A stretch of DNA of 64,000 nt. It comes from a candidate division WOR-3 bacterium (GTDB lineage: Bacteria; Hydrothermota; Tepidihabitantia; Tepidihabitantales; CAIPLT01). The stretch covers positions 62,001 through 126,000 of the forward strand of contig JBDRUV010000002.1 in the NCBI GenBank assembly GCA_039801505.1. The letters run 5' to 3'. The translations under genes and the position numbers were made by a program. Shown here piece by piece: positions 35,479 to 46,325 of this stretch; the stretch's first letter is position 1, and each line of letters begins with the position of its first letter. The notes below the pieces were generated by a model that had not been told where the DNA came from, did not search any database, and worked only from the letters and a program-made list of their open reading frames with translations.

Positions 35479-37423
35479 TTATTTTAAATAAAAGGTTTTG
35501 CCCAGGACTAGTAATTTTTGTCTTTTGTTTTCATTTAAGATAAAATATACCCCGGATGGTAAAGATGTCAACGGGCTATAAGTTTTTTGGCCCAAAACGC
35601 CATAAATTTGGTGTCGGAAGGCCAGATTATTGATCAAGTTACTTTGTTCATAAGAAATTCCTTGGGGATTATTGACCGTCACCAGCATCGAACATACAGT
35701 AGTGTTATTACTAGCATCGGTGGCATACACCTTTATCCAATATTCACCATTGGGGAACTCACTTGTCCGCCAAGCAAAACTAGCATCGGTGAGTTCTATT
35801 ATGCTATCACCATCGGTATTTGTAACGATAAAATAATAGTCGCGATAGTTGTAATCACCGCGGCTTCGACAAACGTTGTCTTCTTTGTACACCACATTAA
35901 TTGTATTAGTAGGAGCAATCCGTTTATCGAAAATAATCGAAAATAAATGATAGCTCGCGAGGTTTTGATTGGGGGCCGGTAATTTCGTATTCAATTTTTA
36001 ACGGAATTAGCCGATCCCAAATCGTATCACCAGTTGAACAGGAGAACTTATCATACACCTTAGCGATAATATCAACATCACCGTTGAGATTGGTCGGTGA
36101 AAGATAGGTCGAGGTATTATTACGGCAAAAAGCTAACAATGAGCCAACCCGGGCATTTTCAAAGGTCGGTGGGAAAGTATCAAAATTGGGATGTAAAGAA
36201 AGCAGCGGATTAAATACGAAGTCCCAATCGGCAACTGGCCACGTTGCACCACGGTCACGAATCTTAGCAAAATGCAGATGATGAAAATGGGCACTATCAA
36301 CCGGCCAATACACCAAATAACCAATGAGCTCACCAGCTTCTACGGTATCACCAACATTTTTATGAAACCGAGACGAGTCAATATGGGCATATAGATATGC
36401 ATCACAAGAGTCGGTATAATTTAAGGAAGAGTCAGCAATTGCTAATCGCCAGTAAAGATAATTACCAGTAGTTAGCCAAGCTTTAACATAGCCGCGCTTT
36501 ACGGCATAGACTGGCACATTGGGCTGATAGGGCGAAAGTATGTCGACACCTGGGTGATAATAAGATAAGCCACCGTAATTCTGGAATTCACCCCAGTTGT
36601 TGCCTATTGGATGTAACACATCAAGAGGTCCCAGGGGCCAAGATATACTGTCCCCGGAAAGCTTTATGATACTATTAGTAGCTAACTGGGATTCTGTATC
36701 TTCGTTTGCTTTGTTTTCTGTAACTACCCATTTCCGAAGGTGAGTTTGGGCTACGATATTTTGGTCTACGATTTCAATGTTTTGAATCTGTTCTTCATAA
36801 TTTTGATAACTAAACGGCACATTGGTAATCAATTGTCCATTAGTATTAATGATATACACATGACCACAAAGATTATTGCGCTCTTCGGTGACCAAAAGAA
36901 TTGTATCCTGGCTGTGGAATTTACCCCATATTAGCGGGCGAGAAAACTCTTTTAACCATTCGGTTTTCTTCTCCAAAAGATTTATTAGTAAAAAATGATT
37001 TCGGCAGATGACCCCAATATATTGGTTATACGGGGAAAAAATAATTGAATGTATGGCAGCCGATGGTAATAAAATTTCAAAGTCTTTTTGACCCTCCTTA
37101 TAGATTCTAACTTTCTTCTCTGAGGCACATGCCATATATTTATTATCTGAAGAAAAAGCCCAATGTCCCCAATCACCAATGAAGTTGGTTCTATGTCCCA
37201 AGGCATTATACACCTCTAATCCCTTATCAGTTATCAGATATAAATATTGCTTATCGGATGCAATTTTATAGCTATAGATCGGAATATCTTTTATTTCGGC
37301 GATTAAATTTTTTTGTAAGTCATAGAAACGAAACACTGCCCAATTTTCATGTTGGTCAATATTCAAAAGCGAGTTATCTAAGGGTATAAGGCTCGTGATC
37401 AATGTTAATAAAATTGTAAGCAT
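35479..37423 (-). pseudogene. M23 (LytM) peptidase with N-terminal beta-propeller, split by a 10-bp duplication frameshift
   Basis: From ATG 37423 the first frame encodes 499 residues: a signal-like segment (MLTILLTLITSLIPL), a WD-like beta-propeller (about 30-250) and an M23 zinc peptidase domain with YHPGVD (His290, Asp294), YAHID (His347) and HLH (His382, His384). It stops at 35924. The second frame (open from 35994 to 35479) continues naturally with an Ig-like domain and a C-terminal tail SLPSGVYFILNENKRQKLLV, which looks like a type-IX-style anchor. Removing one copy of a perfect 10-bp tandem repeat (35927-35946) joins the frames into one protein of about 644 residues. M23 enzymes cut peptidoglycan crosslinks. 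The truncated form would keep the peptidase but lose the C-terminal tail. Confidence 0.8.
35927..35946. repeat. 10-bp perfect tandem duplication causing the frameshift
   Basis: TCGAAAATAA occurs twice in direct succession (35927-35936, 35937-35946). On the coding strand one copy gives the in-frame reading SFIFDKRIA; two copies give SFIFDYFR and a stop. A unit length of ten is not a multiple of three, so gain or loss of one copy switches the frame. Confidence 0.85.
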
Positions 37424-37429
37424 TTCAAA

Positions 37430-37458
37430 ATAATAAAGATAGCTTTTGATATTGTCAA
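37430..37458 (-). promoter_or_regulatory. Promoter of the M23 peptidase gene, leaderless
   Basis: On the minus strand TTGACA (37458-37453), 17 bases, TATTAT (37435-37430). Six bases then separate it from ATG 37423, so the transcript should begin at the A of the start codon. This also supports 37423 over an upstream TTG at 37477. Confidence 0.65.
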
Positions 37459-37468
37459 TGTGGGAATA

Positions 37469-37496
37469 TTGACACAAAAAATTATTTAGTTATAAT
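37469..37496 (+). promoter_or_regulatory. Promoter of the four-gene ATPase-helicase operon
   Basis: TTGACA (37469-37474), 16 bases, TATAAT (37491-37496), a perfect consensus match. Its -35 box and that of the divergent M23 promoter form an inverted repeat (TGTCAAT at 37453-37459 and ATTGACA at 37468-37474), so one regulator could cover both. The leader before ATG 37519 is about 15 bases with no clear ribosome site. Confidence 0.75.
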
Positions 37497-37518
37497 ATTG
37501 TTTATCTCAGTAAAAATT

Positions 37519-38358
37519 ATGGTAGTTGATCTTGAGCAGTTTCTAAAAGACCTAAATAAAATAGCAAGTAAATTAAAGGCTTACGAAAAGTTTATTGAGC
37601 ATTCACGCCTCGAAGATAGTTACGAACGGAGTCGAATGCTTTCAGAATTAGAGGGATTAATAAAAAATCAGTCAATTCGAAATATTCTTAACGGTAGTTC
37701 GTTATTAATAACTTTTGACAATTTTTTAGCTCAAGAACGCGAAAAAATCGCGCAAGAACAGGAAGAATTTCACTTTAATCTAAGCTTAAAACTAGCTGAA
37801 CGACTATCCGGGTTCGGCGAATTAAAAGGGCAACTACCAATTTTACGAATTAAATATTACACGCTGAAATTTAATTTTAATGCTGGAACAGTCTCGTTAT
37901 GGTGGGGACCAGAAAAAGAGTTAATAAAAAATTTACCGCTTAATTTAGACCTAATCAGCGAAACGATAAAGAAATTTGACAGTGGCTTACAAAGTCGTTG
38001 GCGTAGTTACGTAGAGTTTTATGAGTTGTTGAAAAATGCTTATAATCGCTATTTGATTTTTAATAATTTGTCATGGGGGGAGAAGGTAAATCTTTTAGAA
38101 ATCCTTAGAGAATTAGTGATGCTCAGCCAGAGCAAGGCCTTTTGGATTAACCCCATTAAAAATAATTTTCGCGAATATTCACGAATTTCCTTTAGCTACG
38201 ACCTCTACCGATTAAAAATTATTCCTGAGTTTGCCCAAAAGTTTCAACTGGCTGTGGCGACATTCGCCCTAACCGAAAACAAAGGCAGGTCCATATGGAT
38301 ACCGGACAATGATTTGGGTGGCGGCACGCATTATTCAACTATAGCCTTTCAACAATAA
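37519..38358 (+). CDS. Protein of unknown function, first gene of the BrxD-like ATPase/helicase operon
   Basis: Not recognised. The product is 279 residues from ATG 37519 (a TTG at 37498 lies inside the promoter and is rejected). The N-terminal 100 residues are charged and helical (LEQFLKDLNKIASKLKAYEK, then FLAQEREKIAQEQEEFHF), suggesting a coiled coil. A mixed central part contains FNFNAGTVSLWWGPEKEL and a helical part includes LLEILRELVMLSQSKAFWI. The C-terminus is DNDLGGGTHYSTIAFQQ. No catalytic motif or membrane segment is visible. It is six bases from the first ATPase gene, so it is probably a subunit or adaptor of the same complex. A remote TerB-domain or scaffold relation is possible but not shown. 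Confidence 0.6.
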   Translation: MVVDLEQFLKDLNKIASKLKAYEKFIEHSRLEDSYERSRMLSELEGLIKNQSIRNILNGSSLLITFDNFLAQEREKIAQEQEEFHFNLSLKLAERLSGFGELKGQLPILRIKYYTLKFNFNAGTVSLWWGPEKELIKNLPLNLDLISETIKKFDSGLQSRWRSYVEFYELLKNAYNRYLIFNNLSWGEKVNLLEILRELVMLSQSKAFWINPIKNNFREYSRISFSYDLYRLKIIPEFAQKFQLAVATFALTENKGRSIWIPDNDLGGGTHYSTIAFQQ

Positions 38359-38363
38359 AATTT

Positions 38364-39650
38364 ATGGATAGGAAAGTCGCATTGTTAATAATTAATAAAT
38401 TAGGTAGTAGCGGCACACCACCCGAAGTTGGTGTAGAGGCATTTAGTATTGGCTTAGATAAATACTTAAAAACCATTGAAGACGAATACTTAAATGGTAT
38501 ATTAAAAAATTATCATCTTTCGTCGTTTAAATTGGTCGTTGGAAATTACGGCGGTGGTAAGACGCACTTTTTGTACTCGGTAAGAAATCTGGCCTTCAAA
38601 CATGGCTATGTGGTAGTATATGTTTCATTAAATCCCACTGAATGTCCTTTTGATAAGTTAGAACTTGTTTATAAACAGATTATAAATAATATTCAAATTA
38701 CCCCACCGACTAAAGAAACTCTATCGTTTCCGTTAACAGGCATTGAAGCGTTCATTGAACAATGGTACTCTCAGGTTAAAGAAAAACTAAATCAAACTAC
38801 AGCAATAAATGATTATCTGAGCACCCTACGAGGTATCGAGAGCAGCAGTTTTCTAAATGCCATAAAGGGAGCTTTCTTTAATTGGGGCACGTCTAACATT
38901 GAAGAATTTAATGCTATTATTCAATACTTAAAGGGCGAGGAAATTGGTAAAGAAATTCGAGCTCGTTATCGAATTTCTGAGCGAATTGATAAAGCGACAG
39001 CATTTCGAATGATTAGAAGCTTTATTCAGTGGGTTCACCTTATTGGTTATAATGGAGTCGTGTTTTTATTTGATGAGGCTGAACGAGGCATTTCTATGTC
39101 TAGCTCGAAAGATAAACGGCGGGCACTGGATAACTTACGGCAGATTGTTGACGAATGCGGTAACAGTCGATTACCAGGTGCAATGTTTTTTTATGCTATC
39201 CCTGATGAAAATTTACTTTTAGAAGGCGCTGGTGGAGTTTACGAAGCATTGAAACAACGATTAACAACCGTTTTTTCTAATATTAATCCACTGGGTGTAA
39301 AGATTGATTTAGAAGAACTAGGAATTTCACCGCAGGAGTTTCTTATTGCCTTGGGTGAAAAATTAATAGAAATTTTTAATACTGCCTATGATTTTACACT
39401 AGCCCCAGAAGAACGAAAAAAATTAATCAAAATTTTTTCTGAACGATCAGCACAAGCTTATGGTTTTGATATTAGCTATCGTCGATTGTTTATAGTAACG
39501 ATGCTTGGTGCGCTACAAAGAATAAAAAATGAACCAGAGGCTTTAAAAAAAATTTTATCTAATCCTCAGGAGGTTGATCGACTTCTTAGAATTACCAGCC
39601 GAAAACTTATTAGCGAAGAACAAAGGGATATAACCGAAACCGAATTTTAG
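38364..39650 (+). CDS. BrxD-like P-loop ATPase (DUF2791 type), first copy
   Basis: A 428-residue P-loop ATPase. The N-terminus, INKLGSSGTPPEVGVEAFSI (residues 10-29), is characteristic of BrxD of type-2 BREX defence loci. Walker A is GNYGGGKTH (60-68), Walker B is VVFLFDEAE (232-240), and an arginine-containing segment follows (SKDKRRALDNLRQIVDECG). A helical C-terminal region carries SAQAYGFDISYRRLFIVTML. These are ORC/STAND-like ATPases thought to act with helicases on DNA. Here it sits between an unknown protein and a second, different ATPase, and upstream of an Lhr-like helicase. The family call rests on motif recognition only. Confidence 0.75.
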   Translation: MDRKVALLIINKLGSSGTPPEVGVEAFSIGLDKYLKTIEDEYLNGILKNYHLSSFKLVVGNYGGGKTHFLYSVRNLAFKHGYVVVYVSLNPTECPFDKLELVYKQIINNIQITPPTKETLSFPLTGIEAFIEQWYSQVKEKLNQTTAINDYLSTLRGIESSSFLNAIKGAFFNWGTSNIEEFNAIIQYLKGEEIGKEIRARYRISERIDKATAFRMIRSFIQWVHLIGYNGVVFLFDEAERGISMSSSKDKRRALDNLRQIVDECGNSRLPGAMFFYAIPDENLLLEGAGGVYEALKQRLTTVFSNINPLGVKIDLEELGISPQEFLIALGEKLIEIFNTAYDFTLAPEERKKLIKIFSERSAQAYGFDISYRRLFIVTMLGALQRIKNEPEALKKILSNPQEVDRLLRITSRKLISEEQRDITETEF

Positions 39651-39661
39651 TTCCGGATAAA

Positions 39662-41074
39662 ATGGTAAAAGATCGGCAAGTATTTCATCCAGTTTTTGGT
39701 AAGGGCATTTTGCTGTCGGTTCGGAAATCACCCATAAGGCTTCAAACCGAATGTTTTGTAAGTTTTGAATCCGGGCTTAAATTATGGATACCGGCTTATC
39801 GGTTAAGCGGGGTAGATAAAGAACTCACCCAAGGGATTGTGAAAGATGGTAGAGTGCTTAAGGAGGAAGAATTAAAAATTAAGGCTCATCGTATGATAGA
39901 AGCATTTCGCTTAGGAATTGTTCCAGCCGAAGATGTTTCTGATTTTACTTTTGGACGTGAGGTTGAAACCAAAGTAATTCAAAAACTACTAAACAATCTT
40001 AAAGAAGGATCGGGTGGGGCAATACTTATTGAGGGTAGCTACGGTGCTGGTAAATCCCATTTTTTAGAGTATATAAAATCAGAAGCATTGAAACAGAAAG
40101 CCCTGGTAAGTTCAGTGGTGCTTTCCACCCAAGAGACGACGCCAGCTCGTCCTAAACGAGTATATCGGGATATAATAGCTAATTTGCGTTATCGGAAGGA
40201 TAATTTTCTTAAACCACCATCATCAGGTATTTTTTTAGAAACGATTGAGGGGGGATTTCGAGATTTGTTGTTTAGTGCCGCAAAAAATTATCGGGCGCCT
40301 GATTTTTTAGATATGAAGGAACACATCTTTTGGGCACCGGTCTTAAAACAATTACAGCGAATTGAAGAAGATAGTTATAAGGCTGAAGTTTTTTGGCAAT
40401 GGATTGAAGGCGAGAGCACCAAGGAATACGCAGTCGGGCGGTACGTACACAACAAGAGAATAGTTATGCCGTATCGGATTTCTGGTGGTTGGCGGATTCC
40501 GGCACTGTATGATTTTTCTACAGCGATCGACTTTTATTGTTATTTAATCTCCGGGCTTTCTTATTTGGCTCGGAAACTTAATTATTCCGGATTAGTGCTA
40601 CTAATGGATGAGGTAGAAACGATTGCTTTTCACGGTAATTCTTTTTACTACGAACGCGGCACAGCATTTCTTGACGGACTTATCAAGATGGCACAGAATA
40701 GTCCGGCGCTTAAAAGCTTTAATACCCAGCTGATTCACAATCAAGTTCGACCAACACCTTATATCTATAAAGACAGTTACGTTTTATTAGTTTTAGCCAG
40801 TACACCCGAACCAGCTACAATGCGGTTTAAGAGTATGGTTAACGCACATATTGAACTTGAACCGTTGACAGCTGAGCATCTTTCAAGTTGTTTTGAGGCC
40901 TTATTAGAGTACTACAAAATAGCTTTCCCTAATGTCGAAATTTTATCTACTACTAAACGACAAATTCTTGAAAATGCATTAAAATACCACAAAGCCGGCG
41001 TGCGGTATTTTCTTAAATATGTAGTGGAAAGTTTGGATACTATAAGAATTAATCGAACTTTTAAATTCGCCTAA
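39662..41074 (+). CDS. BrxD-like P-loop ATPase (DUF2791 type) with N-terminal Tudor/CarD-like domain, second copy
   Basis: A 470-residue ATPase. Residues 5-50 (FHPVFGKGILLSV and following strands) look like the small CarD/UvrD-tail Tudor fold that binds RNA polymerase or nucleic-acid partners. Then comes AFRLGIVPAEDVSDFTFGRE (81-100), a DUF2791 hallmark, Walker A GSYGAGKSH (125-133) and Walker B LVLLMDEVET (311-320). The protein differs strongly from the upstream ATPase, so the two may form a hetero-oligomer. The helicase gene starts at the base after its stop, strong evidence for a joint complex. Confidence 0.75.
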   Translation: MVKDRQVFHPVFGKGILLSVRKSPIRLQTECFVSFESGLKLWIPAYRLSGVDKELTQGIVKDGRVLKEEELKIKAHRMIEAFRLGIVPAEDVSDFTFGREVETKVIQKLLNNLKEGSGGAILIEGSYGAGKSHFLEYIKSEALKQKALVSSVVLSTQETTPARPKRVYRDIIANLRYRKDNFLKPPSSGIFLETIEGGFRDLLFSAAKNYRAPDFLDMKEHIFWAPVLKQLQRIEEDSYKAEVFWQWIEGESTKEYAVGRYVHNKRIVMPYRISGGWRIPALYDFSTAIDFYCYLISGLSYLARKLNYSGLVLLMDEVETIAFHGNSFYYERGTAFLDGLIKMAQNSPALKSFNTQLIHNQVRPTPYIYKDSYVLLVLASTPEPATMRFKSMVNAHIELEPLTAEHLSSCFEALLEYYKIAFPNVEILSTTKRQILENALKYHKAGVRYFLKYVVESLDTIRINRTFKFA

Positions 41075-43111
41075 GTGAATTTCCAAATTAAAAAGCTTTT
41101 ACCTAAAACCTATTTTCCATTTTTAGGCCGATTCAGTGCCTTAACAGAGGTTCAGATGAAAGCAATTCCCGAAATTATGCAATATAAAGATGTACTAGTA
41201 ATTTCGCCTTCGGCTTCTGGAAAGACCGAAGCGGTAGTAGCACCGTTACTTGAACAGGCGTTAAGCGAAAATTGTGCAGGATTAAGGATTCTTTATATTT
41301 CACCAACACGAGCCCTAGTAAATGATCTTTACCGTAGACTTTTAGAGCCAGTTAATTATTTGGGATTAACAATCGAACGGAAAACCGGGGATTACCCTCA
41401 AATTTCTGAAAAAAAACTCCCTTACATCATTTTAACTACTCCAGAATCCTTTGATTCGCTTTTATGTCGTCACCCTAAAATTTTTCTTATGCTCCACGGG
41501 GTAATATTAGACGAACTTCATCTTTTACACGGAACACCTCGGGGTGATCAGCTTAGAATTTTACTAAAGCGACTAGAACGGATTTTAGGCGGACGAAAAA
41601 TAAGTTGTGCGGCGCTTTCAGCAACAATCGATGACTTTCAGATAGCCAATTATTATTTTCCTGACCCTCAAAAAATTAGTGTCATTTCTGTACCGGAGAG
41701 AAGACTACTTGATTATAAACTAATTCCAGCACACAAGGGATATTTGACTGAGTTAATTACAGAATTTATCACTAAGGGTTTTCGAAAAATTCTTTGGTTT
41801 TTTAACGCTCGAAGTCTTGTCGAAGAGTTTATGTTAAAATTAAAAAAACTATCCCCGCCGTATCCAGTACTAGGGCATCACTCGTCGCTTTCTAAAAAAG
41901 AAAGAGAATCAATTGAGCATTTTATGAATACTTCATCAAGGGCAATTCTCTGCGCCACGTCGACTTTAGAATTGGGCATTGATATTGGAGATATCGATTG
42001 CGTTGTGCAGTATCGCCCACCTCCTAATGTTAGTTCGCTTCTTCAACGCATTGGACGTGGGAATCGGCGTAATCACGAGCGACTTTATACTATTGGTATC
42101 TATGCTTCACTACTAGACCGGATTGTTTTTGAAACTTTCTTTGAATGTGCCCGTGATGGCAAGCTTTACACTCGTCCCTACCTGCCGTCACTTGCCGTGC
42201 TACCTCAGCAAATTTTTTCTTACGCCTATCAACGACGACGGGTCGGTTTAACCTTTGAAGCGTTTAATAATGTTACCAATCATTACCTTGACGATTTTGA
42301 GATAAAGTCTAAGGTTTTTGAGTTTACCGTGCAAAAAGGTTATTTGCGGGAAGTAAGACGTGGCATATATTTTCTTACCGAAAAGTTAGAAAAAAAACTC
42401 ACTTATGGTAAAATTCACTCAAATATTCAAGAAAAAAGCTTTGGGGCATATGCAGTTTACGATGCCGAAAGCGGACGGTTTTTAGGACAAATATTCTATT
42501 TGAGCGAGCGATTTATTTTGGGCGGTAAAACTTATGAGGTGCTGCGGATTGACGAAAAAGAATTCAAAGTATTTGTTCGGCACTTAGAAGACGAGATTGG
42601 TTCTACTAAAATTTTTGAGGGTACCGGGGCCTTGGGGTATCATTATCAGATGATTCCTTTATTTATTAAAAAAATTTTCCCGAATCTATCGCAAACCGGA
42701 TTTCCTTATTTCGTAAAAGCTAATCAGACAGCAATTATTCACATGCTCGGTGGGCTTTATAGTTTTATTATCAAACAGGCTCTTAAAAAAGAAGGAATTC
42801 GAGTCACAGATTTTGAAGGGGTAATGTTTGTGTTTGACTGGCCCCATTTAACATACTTCCCGGTTCCTGAAAAGCAGACAATTCGCGAGGTTATTAATGA
42901 AAATTTATTTCGACTTGAGGACAATTTAGGTTCGGGGGCTTTTTTTCGATATTTGCCGCGGGAGCTACAAATCGAAGAACATTATCGGGCATTGGACATC
43001 GACGGACTTCTTGATTTCATTAGCTCCTGGCCTTTGGTTAGAATATCTATAGATGATATGATAAATCTAGATCCCCAAACCCTATCAAATACTAGTAAAA
43101 TTGAAAATTAA
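41075..43111 (+). CDS. Lhr-like DEAD/DEAH-box helicase (BrxHI-like)
   Basis: Superfamily 2 helicase of 678 residues starting at GTG 41075. Motifs in order: Q-like LTEVQMKAIPEI, I SPSASGKTEA (44-53), Ia SPTRALVNDLYRR, II DELH (146-149), III ALSATI, IV WFFNARSLVEEF, V ATSTLELGIDIGD and VI QRIGRGNRRN. The Lhr-type region after the core extends to residue 678 and is shorter than in full-length Lhr (about 1500). It resembles the helicases paired with BrxD in type-2 BREX. It would unwind or remodel DNA in an ATP-dependent way, fed or regulated by the two upstream ATPases. Confidence 0.85.
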   Translation: MNFQIKKLLPKTYFPFLGRFSALTEVQMKAIPEIMQYKDVLVISPSASGKTEAVVAPLLEQALSENCAGLRILYISPTRALVNDLYRRLLEPVNYLGLTIERKTGDYPQISEKKLPYIILTTPESFDSLLCRHPKIFLMLHGVILDELHLLHGTPRGDQLRILLKRLERILGGRKISCAALSATIDDFQIANYYFPDPQKISVISVPERRLLDYKLIPAHKGYLTELITEFITKGFRKILWFFNARSLVEEFMLKLKKLSPPYPVLGHHSSLSKKERESIEHFMNTSSRAILCATSTLELGIDIGDIDCVVQYRPPPNVSSLLQRIGRGNRRNHERLYTIGIYASLLDRIVFETFFECARDGKLYTRPYLPSLAVLPQQIFSYAYQRRRVGLTFEAFNNVTNHYLDDFEIKSKVFEFTVQKGYLREVRRGIYFLTEKLEKKLTYGKIHSNIQEKSFGAYAVYDAESGRFLGQIFYLSERFILGGKTYEVLRIDEKEFKVFVRHLEDEIGSTKIFEGTGALGYHYQMIPLFIKKIFPNLSQTGFPYFVKANQTAIIHMLGGLYSFIIKQALKKEGIRVTDFEGVMFVFDWPHLTYFPVPEKQTIREVINENLFRLEDNLGSGAFFRYLPRELQIEEHYRALDIDGLLDFISSWPLVRISIDDMINLDPQTLSNTSKIEN

Positions 43112-43313: not shown

Positions 43314-46300
43314 ATGCAAAAAATAACTATACTAACAACAATATTACTCGCTACCCTGGTGTTTGCTGAGGTCTCGCCCGATTATGCGCCAGGCACGGTA
43401 ATGCTACCCCAAACCAATGAGGGTCCGGCTGATCCTAGTTGGTTTACAAAGCGGCCATTCCCGACAACCCGTGCGCATTGTATGGTTTCTCCGGTAATCG
43501 AAGTTGATGGTGTTAAGAAATACTATCTATTTGGCGGTCCTAATGTTTCTGGCGGTGCATATACCAATGAGTGCTGGGAATATAATACGGTGCTTGATAC
43601 CTGGATTCAAAAAGCCCCGATGCCTACAGCTCGGGGTATTGGTCGGGCTGTGGTGGCTGGTGGTAAAATCTATGTCATCGGTGGCTGCGTGACATTTGGC
43701 AGCGGTCTTGATGTCGTGGAGATCTATGATCCAGTAACCAATACCTGGACAACCGGCCCTTCAATGCCTGTTGGTAATCATGACTTTGGAGCGGCAGTCT
43801 ACCGCGACACCTGGATTTATGTGTGTGGTGGTGGTAACTGGTCCTCAGGTTCGCCGCCAACGGCCAATGTCTATGTGCTAAATCGTGTGACTGGGGTCTG
43901 GTCAACAGCAACACCAATGCCGACGCCGATGGGAACGCCTGGTTGTGGTATCATTGGCAACAAGATCATTATGGCCACTGGTTATGTCTCTGGAGCTGGA
44001 AGCAACATTGTCCAGATTGGCACAATCAACCCAGCTGATCCTACGCAAATTACTTGGACTTCTGGACCATCAATGCCAGGAAGCACTGTATATCGAGCCA
44101 ATTCCGGAACTTGTCAGGGGTTCTTGTATATTATGGGTGGTAATCTCACAAGCGGTGTTTCCAACCAGGCATACAAATTTGACCCAGCCACTAATACTTG
44201 GACTCAACTACCCAATATGCCAACCGCTCGTTCTAATGTCTACGGTTTAGGAACTGATCCTGCGGGTAAGGTCTACTTCCCAGTTGGTTATAGCGGCACA
44301 GCATATCTGACGGTTCACGAAATGCTCGACGATCAGGTTTATGCCAATGATGTTGGAGTAGATGCCATTCATAGCCCGGGAGCTACACATTTAGTCAATA
44401 CGCCGATGACTCCGCGTGCTCGCGTTAAAAACTACGGAACTGCAGCTCAAGCCAGTTTCTCAGTAGTCTGTTCTATCATTGGTACCGGCGGTGCCGTTCG
44501 TTATACAAATACCCAGACCGCGCCAGCTTTGGCGCCGGGTGATACAGCGTTAATCACCTTTACTACTTGGACGCCGACAACTTCTGAAAATGTAACCGTA
44601 ATCGTCCGAACATTGCTGGCCAACGACCAGAATCCGGACAATAATCGAATGACTAGAACAACAATTATTGGAAGCTTCTTAGCGTTTGCCGATTTTAATG
44701 ATCCGACCTTCCCACCACCGGGTTGGCAGGCCGTAATTATTAGCGGCACTTATAATTGGGAACGGTTTACCTCCGGTACTTATCCGACTTGCACGCCGTA
44801 TGAGGGTGAAGGCATGGCTGGTTATCGGTCCTGGTATGCCTCTAGTGGTAGTCAGGCCCGGTTATTTACTCAGGTGACACCGACCGGTCCATCCTTGTGT
44901 ACCTTAAAATTTTACATGATGCATGATCCGGGATATTCTACAGTGCAGGAGAGTGTGATTGTTGAGACATCACTTGATGGGACTAATTTTACTCGGGTTG
45001 CCGCATTTCGTCGTTATGAGCCGACCCAGGGTTGGCAAGAGCATGCGGTCTATCTGGGTAATTTCTCGACGCCGTTCTATGTTGGTTTCCGTGCCTTGTC
45101 GGGATATGGTAACAATATGTATATCGATTTTGTGCGCGTGACCGGTGCTTTGCCAATGGCAAACGATATCGGAGTGGAAGCAATTCGGGCCCCGGGTGCT
45201 GTGCATCAGATAAACACCTCGATGACCCCAGTTGCCTTGATTAAGAATTATGGTACCAATGCTGCGACTAATATTGTGGTGCGTTGTTCGATTATTGGTA
45301 GTGGCGGTGCCGTACGTTATACGGCCAGTGCCAATGTTGCTTCTTTGGGTGTTGGTGATACCGCGCGGGTGAGCTTTACCTCTTGGACGCCGACGATTTC
45401 TGAGAATGTCACGGTTATTATGCGGACATTCTGGGCACAGGATCAGAATCCCAACAATGACCGGTTGACTCGGACGACTTTAATTGGCGCGATCACTTAT
45501 TATGATTTTGAGACCTCTGATGGTGGGTTTATACCGGATCCGGCCGCTGGTGGTTGGGAGTGGGGTGTGCCGACTTCAGGTCCTGGTTCAGCTTATTCTG
45601 GTCAGAAGCTTTGGGCTACGGTGTTGGGTGGCAATTATGTCAACAATGCGGACTGGAAGCTAACGACGCCGACCTTTACGGCTTCGGTGAATAATCCGGT
45701 TTTGAAGTTTTGGCACTGGTATTATATTGAGACTAACTGGGATGGTGGAAATGTGAAGCTGTCGACAGATGGTGGTACAACTTGGAATGTGATCAGTCCG
45801 GTTGGTGGTTATAATGGGGTTGCGAATACGGCTAATGTTGCGATACCTGGTGAGTCTTGTTATACTGGTTCGATGCAGAGTTGGAATGAGGCGGTATTTA
45901 ATTTACCGGTGAATGCTGGGCAGCAGTTTAGTTTGCGTTGGCATTTTGGTTCGGACGCTTCGGTGGTGTATGCTGGTTGGTATGTTGACGATGTGATGTT
46001 AATTGGTGCTGCAGCTGCTGGTATTAGTGAGGGTAAGACTGGTGGTGTTCAGGTGACTGCGCTTAAGGGTATTCGGAATCCGGTGCGTGGTGGTGGATAT
46101 ATTGGGTTTAGTTTAGCTGCGCCTTCGGATGTGCGGTTAAGTATTTATGATGCTTCTGGTCGACTGGTGCGGACCTTGGTGAGTGGTTATCAAGGGGCTG
46201 GTGAGTATAATATCTTCTGGAATGGTCGGGATGATGCCAATCGTGAGGTGAGTGAGGGTATTTATTTCTATAAGCTTGAGACTACTGGTTACGCTCAGAC

Positions 46301-46325
46301 GCGTAAGCTCATCTACACCCGCTAA
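43314..46325 (+). CDS. Secreted Kelch-repeat/CARDB protein with FlgD-like C-terminal sorting domain
   Basis: A 1003-residue exported protein. It has a signal peptide (ITILTTILLATLVFAE) and five to six Kelch repeats (about 40-340, units such as APMPTARGIGRAVV and KIYVIGG) forming a beta-propeller. Two long repeats follow, each a CARDB-type domain plus a jelly-roll-like domain. They begin at NDVGVDAIHSPGATHLVN (about 344) and NDIGVEAIRAPGAVHQIN (about 616) and share GGAVRYT, SENVTVI and DQNPDNN-like segments. The last 85 residues are a FlgD-Ig-like domain with LSIYDASGRLVRTLVSG and GIYFYKLETTGYAQTRKLIY, the form used as a type-IX-like sorting tail. It is probably surface-anchored or released. 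The 3' third has a strong G-over-C skew on the coding strand. Confidence 0.88.
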   Translation: MQKITILTTILLATLVFAEVSPDYAPGTVMLPQTNEGPADPSWFTKRPFPTTRAHCMVSPVIEVDGVKKYYLFGGPNVSGGAYTNECWEYNTVLDTWIQKAPMPTARGIGRAVVAGGKIYVIGGCVTFGSGLDVVEIYDPVTNTWTTGPSMPVGNHDFGAAVYRDTWIYVCGGGNWSSGSPPTANVYVLNRVTGVWSTATPMPTPMGTPGCGIIGNKIIMATGYVSGAGSNIVQIGTINPADPTQITWTSGPSMPGSTVYRANSGTCQGFLYIMGGNLTSGVSNQAYKFDPATNTWTQLPNMPTARSNVYGLGTDPAGKVYFPVGYSGTAYLTVHEMLDDQVYANDVGVDAIHSPGATHLVNTPMTPRARVKNYGTAAQASFSVVCSIIGTGGAVRYTNTQTAPALAPGDTALITFTTWTPTTSENVTVIVRTLLANDQNPDNNRMTRTTIIGSFLAFADFNDPTFPPPGWQAVIISGTYNWERFTSGTYPTCTPYEGEGMAGYRSWYASSGSQARLFTQVTPTGPSLCTLKFYMMHDPGYSTVQESVIVETSLDGTNFTRVAAFRRYEPTQGWQEHAVYLGNFSTPFYVGFRALSGYGNNMYIDFVRVTGALPMANDIGVEAIRAPGAVHQINTSMTPVALIKNYGTNAATNIVVRCSIIGSGGAVRYTASANVASLGVGDTARVSFTSWTPTISENVTVIMRTFWAQDQNPNNDRLTRTTLIGAITYYDFETSDGGFIPDPAAGGWEWGVPTSGPGSAYSGQKLWATVLGGNYVNNADWKLTTPTFTASVNNPVLKFWHWYYIETNWDGGNVKLSTDGGTTWNVISPVGGYNGVANTANVAIPGESCYTGSMQSWNEAVFNLPVNAGQQFSLRWHFGSDASVVYAGWYVDDVMLIGAAAAGISEGKTGGVQVTALKGIRNPVRGGGYIGFSLAAPSDVRLSIYDASGRLVRTLVSGYQGAGEYNIFWNGRDDANREVSEGIYFYKLETTGYAQTRKLIYTR

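Follow-up and report, generated by a model that had tools for sequence, protein, structure and literature searches.

A four-gene locus encoding paired BrxD-like ATPases and an Lhr-like helicase, related to type-2 BREX and Shango, in a candidate division WOR-3 bacterium and in other bacteria and archaea

In type-2 BREX, BrxD, an AAA+ ATPase of the PF10923 family, accompanies the Lhr-like SF2 helicase BrxHI, and BrxD is proposed to load BrxHI (PMC12839542). Shango comprises a TerB protein (SngA), an ATPase (SngB) and a helicase (SngC), and gives protection against phage (PMC10250203). A four-gene set found in a candidate division WOR-3 bacterium, within the 64 000-nucleotide stretch of DNA analysed here (the window), resembles both. 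Like type-2 BREX it places a PF10923 ATPase beside an Lhr-like SF2 helicase, but it lacks PglX, PglZ, PglY and PglW, has two ATPases rather than one, includes an extra protein encoded by gene 1, and its genes 2 and 4 form groups of their own. With Shango it shares an ATPase, a helicase and one further protein, and genes 2 and 4 match SngB and SngC; however, the TerB protein is missing, a second, Tudor-bearing ATPase is present, and the clades are separate from those of SngB and SngC. No earlier description of the four-gene set was found in the portions of the open-licence literature that were consulted.

Organization of the operon and its products

The four genes occupy positions 37519–43111 on the forward strand, with intergenic gaps of 5 (genes 1 and 2), 11 (genes 2 and 3) and 0 bases (genes 3 and 4), as given in a preliminary description of this DNA. 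That description also reported a perfect promoter. A TTGACA-16-TATAAT site 5' of the operon (37469..37496, +) does match the consensus at 12 of 12 positions and is the best of 27 matches in the region, but 22 matches of any strength would be expected by chance; since promoter-like matches are no more frequent than in shuffled sequences, the site is suggestive only. The open frame of gene 1 itself begins upstream, with a TTG at 37498. The ATG at 37519 is most likely its start codon, because the closest relative of gene 1 starts there. Adjoining the operon on the reverse strand is a gene in two overlapping frames of 171 and 517 aa (35479–37477). Its relatives, in the same cluster, have a single frame of 638–654 aa, and the split is likely to be a frameshift or an assembly error. 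On the 3' side, a gene at 43314–46325 (+) encodes a secreted-looking, Kelch-type protein of 1003 aa with, as judged by eye, a sorting-like C-terminal tail.

Gene 1 (37519..38358, +) encodes a 279 aa protein with a helical N-terminal part followed by a mixed alpha/beta part. It belongs to a nameless but conserved family of 46–60 members that corresponds to no family in Pfam, NCBIfam or PADLOC. The AlphaFold2 model is confident (pLDDT 94.2), and neither the PDB nor a collection of viral structures contained a fold match at E≤1e-3; the family combines conservation with a confidently predicted fold that has no solved match. Several assignments were considered and rejected. A TerB protein was ruled out, as comparison of 46 members with Pfam gave no TerB match. 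The near-invariant residues do not include a conserved acidic catalytic set, which argues against a nuclease, and weak PADLOC and PDB matches were attributed to coiled-coil noise from the N-terminal helices.

Genes 2 (38364..39650, +; 428 aa) and 3 (39662..41074, +; 470 aa) both encode AAA+ ATPases matching PF10923 (BrxC_BrxD, formerly DUF2791), with scores of 145.7 bits (E 2.6e-42) and 87.3 bits (E 1.3e-24), respectively, against a Pfam cut-off of 22.2. In PADLOC, BrxD is nearest to each and SngB of Shango next; for gene 2 the values are 5e-34 and 1e-20. Scores against the NCBIfam BrxD equivalog (116 and 67 bits) are both under its cut-off of 350 bits. The two products bear a weak likeness to one another (about 28 % over 235 residues), and gene 3 is the more divergent from BrxD. 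In gene 2, the Walker A (GNYGGGKT) and Walker B (FLFDE) motifs are conserved. After alignment, both motifs are recognizable in 32 of 32 gene 2 and 33 of 33 gene 3 proteins, with alanine in place of the first glycine of Walker A in one gene 2 product and in the three plasmid-type gene 3 products. The view of these genes as two distinct ATPases of BrxD type with intact Walker motifs is therefore upheld, and the contrary outcome, that they would prove unrelated to DUF2791/BrxD, did not occur. The window's genome contains two PF10923 genes, both of them in this operon.

The AlphaFold2 model of the gene 3 product (pLDDT 86.7) finds its best PDB match in archaeal Orc1/Cdc6 (2qby, E 3.5e-5), and several ORC chains are in the top ranks, although the TM-scores to the ORC/Cdc6 fold are low (0.27–0.33, normalized by query). 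The structure 2qby is a heterodimer, again a pair of different ORC-type ATPases; unlike it, the gene 3 protein carries an additional Tudor domain and is encoded with a helicase and the gene 1 protein.

This Tudor domain, of the UvrD/PcrA type, comprises approximately residues 1–60 of gene 3 (39662..39841, +). A Tudor-like N-terminal fold had been noted before, and it is supported by a profile of 21 gene 3 N-termini, which matches the UvrD Tudor PDB chains 7egs (E 1.9e-4) and 6yi2 (E 2.8e-4). Pfam PcrA_UvrD_tudor reaches 0.0014 in the best family member. The N-terminus of the window's gene 3 has no Pfam match as a single sequence, single sequences being too short for a clear one, and the model shows four strands in this region. 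The likeness to UvrD/PcrA is one of sequence profile; in those proteins the Tudor domain is C-terminal on an SF1 helicase, whereas here it is N-terminal on an AAA+ ATPase. Part of the gene 3 family, including both plasmid-borne proteins, lacks it.

Gene 4 (41075..43111, +) encodes an SF2 helicase of 678 aa resembling Lhr, BrxHI and SngC. Both helicase domains are present (DEAD, 7e-30; Helicase_C, 1e-19), in agreement with the earlier assignment. PADLOC matches are BrxHI (2e-68) and SngC (7e-68), and the best PDB relative is the ATP-dependent DNA helicase 5v9x (1e-26). Of 30 family members, a simple pattern identified helicase motif V in all and motif VI in 27. The core is common to Lhr and ligase-associated Lhr-like helicases. 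Gene 4 differs from the latter in scoring far below the NCBIfam ligase-associated DEXH cut-off (3.9e-56, 190 bits, cut-off 850), in its length of 525–680 aa, with two forms of about 670 and 525 aa, and in being accompanied by genes 2 and 3 where sampled.

Distribution, inheritance and mobile copies

Genes 1 to 4 occur in a row in 23 loci outside WOR-3, in bacteria and archaea. A scan of GTDB genomes with gene 3 revealed relatives in many groups, named here from the record titles: Gemmatimonadota, Aminicenantes, Acidobacteria, Desulfobacterales, Brocadia, Chloroflexi, Poribacteria, Clostridia, Myxococcales and others amongst bacteria, and Methanomicrobiales, ANME-1 and Archaeoglobaceae amongst archaea. 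Sampled by gene 1, presence is patchy: 4/58 genomes in the class to which one archaeal locus belongs, and 12/247 in the phylum containing a locus from Terriglobia (Acidobacteriota). Neither PglX nor PglZ was found beside the sampled chromosomal copies, so the expectation that the four-gene order would recur in distant genomes free of pglX/pglZ neighbours was borne out.

The window's own lineage was sampled with 100 genomes (G000–G099), consisting of the window's genome and its relatives. Gene 3 is present in 56 of them; gene 1 was found only with gene 3 (52/52 genomes), as was gene 4 (49/49), giving Fisher values of 4e-24 and 2e-21, respectively, uncorrected for relatedness. Order and co-occurrence are retained amongst related genomes, well beyond what chance would give, and a lack of co-conservation, which would have spoken against the preliminary description, was not seen. 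In the taxonomic order of the window's genome, 27 of 28 genomes carry gene 3. Two families of the class, f6 (21/23) and f9 (4/4), have it in 25 of 27 genomes, and it is absent from three others, f7, f8 and f10 (0/10 genomes); many absences concern assemblies that are fragmented or incomplete. A split operon still has its parts on other contigs; genome G095, for example, has gene 1 on contig C24, genes 2 and 3 on C92 and gene 4 on C49. In one family (loci L054–L056, L101, L104–L107), genes 2 and 3 are together and genes 1 and 4 are not adjacent; gene 1 was found elsewhere in these genomes where searched for.

Distances for these proteins follow those of RpoB, with r of 0.90 for gene 3, 0.80 for gene 4 and 0.85 for gene 2, the last leaving out two genomes in which gene 2 is cut by a contig end and gene 3 is picked instead (0.39 with them); 0 of 5000 permutations gave values as high. 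The gene trees and RpoB mostly agree at family level, and several genera of f6 share their flanking genes. Together with the near-fixation, this indicates that the set is mainly inherited vertically in the window's lineage. Transfer also happens, as is evident from genome G041, in which two cassettes of different clades (L057 and L058), one with the short form of the helicase, include a second, divergent copy. Housekeeping genes surround the window copy, and no defence gene was seen in its vicinity. Being near-fixed, vertically inherited and in such surroundings, it does not suit the designation of a stand-alone defence island.

In other lineages, patchiness is combined with mobile carriage, a pattern that is not seen in the window's order. 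A conjugative plasmid of Aulosira laxa carries the four-gene set directly after type-2 BREX PglZ, BrxD and BrxHI, and plasmid pDESTI.01 of Desulfomonile tiedjei carries it near an AbiE toxin–antitoxin pair. A third copy comes from IMG/VR; its contig also has tail and portal-like genes and was judged by eye to be a prophage. Gene 1 matches on the plasmid and prophage copies range from 5e-15 to 4e-10, and the copies are divergent, with gene 1 15–18 % identical. On the prophage contig, a UvrD-like helicase gene is situated directly upstream of the cassette (L143:1286–3592), and genes resembling, by eye, a mercury-resistance cluster are also present (L169:1050–4146). Some chromosomal copies have defence-like neighbours, namely SIR2, an OLD-like AAA_15 protein, a type I restriction subunit and AbiEii. 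PADLOC analysis of 124 flanking genes from other lineages, which had no random control, gave few defence matches, and there was no BREX amongst the 25 commonest families; this result is taken as proof neither of enrichment beside defence genes nor of its absence. In a locus of the same class as the window (L062:5666–9739), genes 3 and 4 are separated by an inserted AbiEii/AbiEi-like pair together with an AAA_15 protein.

Shared history and possible function

In phylogenetic trees, the ATPases resolve into four groups (gene 2, gene 3, BrxD and SngB) and the helicases into three (gene 4, BrxHI and SngC), gene 4 being set apart from BrxHI plus SngC with full support. Support for the gene 2 (80) and gene 3 (75) groups is moderate; a short search produced the trees, which are unrooted and include few BREX and Shango members. 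Distances for genes 2, 3 and 4 correlate pairwise at 0.88–0.91 (Mantel 0/2000 for genes 2 and 3). These separate groups and correlated distances indicate an old ATPase pair that has remained alongside its helicase.

The best explanation, which we consider slightly better than an even chance, is that the cassette is an undescribed, nuclease-free relative of the BREX-2 and Shango ATPase–helicase pairs which acts on invading DNA, with a mixed ORC/Cdc6-like pair loading or gating the helicase, and which is resident in the WOR-3 lineage. The four-gene system would be a sister of the BrxD–BrxHI and SngB–SngC pairs. The products of genes 2 and 3, as different ORC/Cdc6-like AAA+ ATPases, may come together on DNA as a mixed ring or clamp that, powered by ATP, loads or gates the gene 4 helicase-translocase. 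The new-fold gene 1 protein, for which the preliminary description proposed a possible specificity or scaffold role, could be an adaptor or sensor, in the position held by the TerB protein in Shango, and the gene 3 Tudor domain, where present, might attach the complex to RNA polymerase or to DNA. Foreign DNA would be stripped, stalled or unwound; cutting is not envisaged, since no recognizable nuclease or methylase is encoded. This putative mechanism draws on fold, on composition and on the proposal for BrxD and BrxHI (PMC12839542). The loading or gating of the helicase by the ATPases, already suggested in the preliminary description, can be inferred from the ORC/Cdc6-like fold of gene 3 and the conserved pairing. 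Helicase loading is open to experiment in this system, since its two ATPases can be mutated separately.

Defence is favoured by kinship, mobile carriage, patchiness and the one BREX-2 neighbour, so that the suggestion of a defence complex retains some inferential support, and the module may spread on mobile elements in many lineages while being resident and near-fixed in the window's order. That near-fixed, RpoB-like inheritance is, however, unusual for a defence system and counts against this explanation, as do the housekeeping context in the window, the few PADLOC matches in flanks (for which there was no random control), the divergence of the mobile copies and the lack of a Tudor domain in the plasmid gene 3 proteins. 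Resident maintenance is favoured by the near-fixation, the inheritance and the surroundings. The system could accordingly be one of housekeeping genome maintenance, in which the Tudor domain sits on RNA polymerase and the ORC-like pair loads the Lhr-like helicase, clearing stalled polymerases, R-loops or lesions, the mobile copies being borrowed host functions. Gene 3 in 27 of 28 genomes of the order and in nearly all of f6 and f9, the RpoB-like distances with agreeing family-level trees, the flanks common to several f6 genera and the Lhr kinship of gene 4 are all consistent with this. So is the binding of RNA polymerase by UvrD/PcrA Tudor domains (PMC7585439, PMC5397179). We nevertheless regard it as somewhat unlikely, as the cassette is missing from f7, f8 and f10 and, in other phyla, from most genomes, some gene 3 proteins lack the Tudor domain, two plasmids and a prophage carry the set, in one case directly beside BREX-2, and the nearest characterized relatives are defence modules. 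A more speculative and rather improbable view would unite the two: a bacterial and archaeal surveillance machine, in which an ORC/Cdc6-like pair, docked on RNA polymerase through Tudor, loads the Lhr-like helicase together with the new-fold protein, serving maintenance where resident and defence where mobile.

A set of neighbours held together by common expression only, with no interacting system, seems barely credible. In some relatives gene 4 or gene 1 is indeed on another contig, but co-occurrence persists when the genes are unlinked, their order holds in both bacteria and archaea and their distances are correlated. Also improbable, though a little less so, is a reduced BREX-2 or Shango that has lost methylase, phosphatase or TerB parts. 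The resemblance of genes 2 and 4 to BrxD/BrxHI and SngB/SngC and the adjacent BREX-2 pair in Aulosira would fit such an origin, but the BREX-2 and Shango loci examined have no counterpart of gene 1 or gene 3, and the separate clade of gene 4 contradicts it. In Aulosira, moreover, BREX-2 BrxD and BrxHI score 552 and 929 bits, against 121 and 326 for the cassette's diverged copies; a full BREX-2 pair beside these indicates a second system and not a remnant. If the reading as a defence relative is correct, the cassette would add an undescribed member to the ATPase-plus-helicase group to which BREX-2 and Shango belong. It would also provide a case in which a system found on plasmids and a prophage elsewhere is now part of the chromosome, and nearly fixed, in a single lineage.

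None of PglX, PglZ, PglY and PglW is amongst the genes read beside the window operon. BREX elsewhere in the window's genome was considered and dismissed, as its sole PglZ-domain protein is a CheY–PglZ response regulator. The gene for this regulator (L245:847–2370) is situated beside that of a histidine kinase, and its product presumably resembles PorX of type IX secretion.
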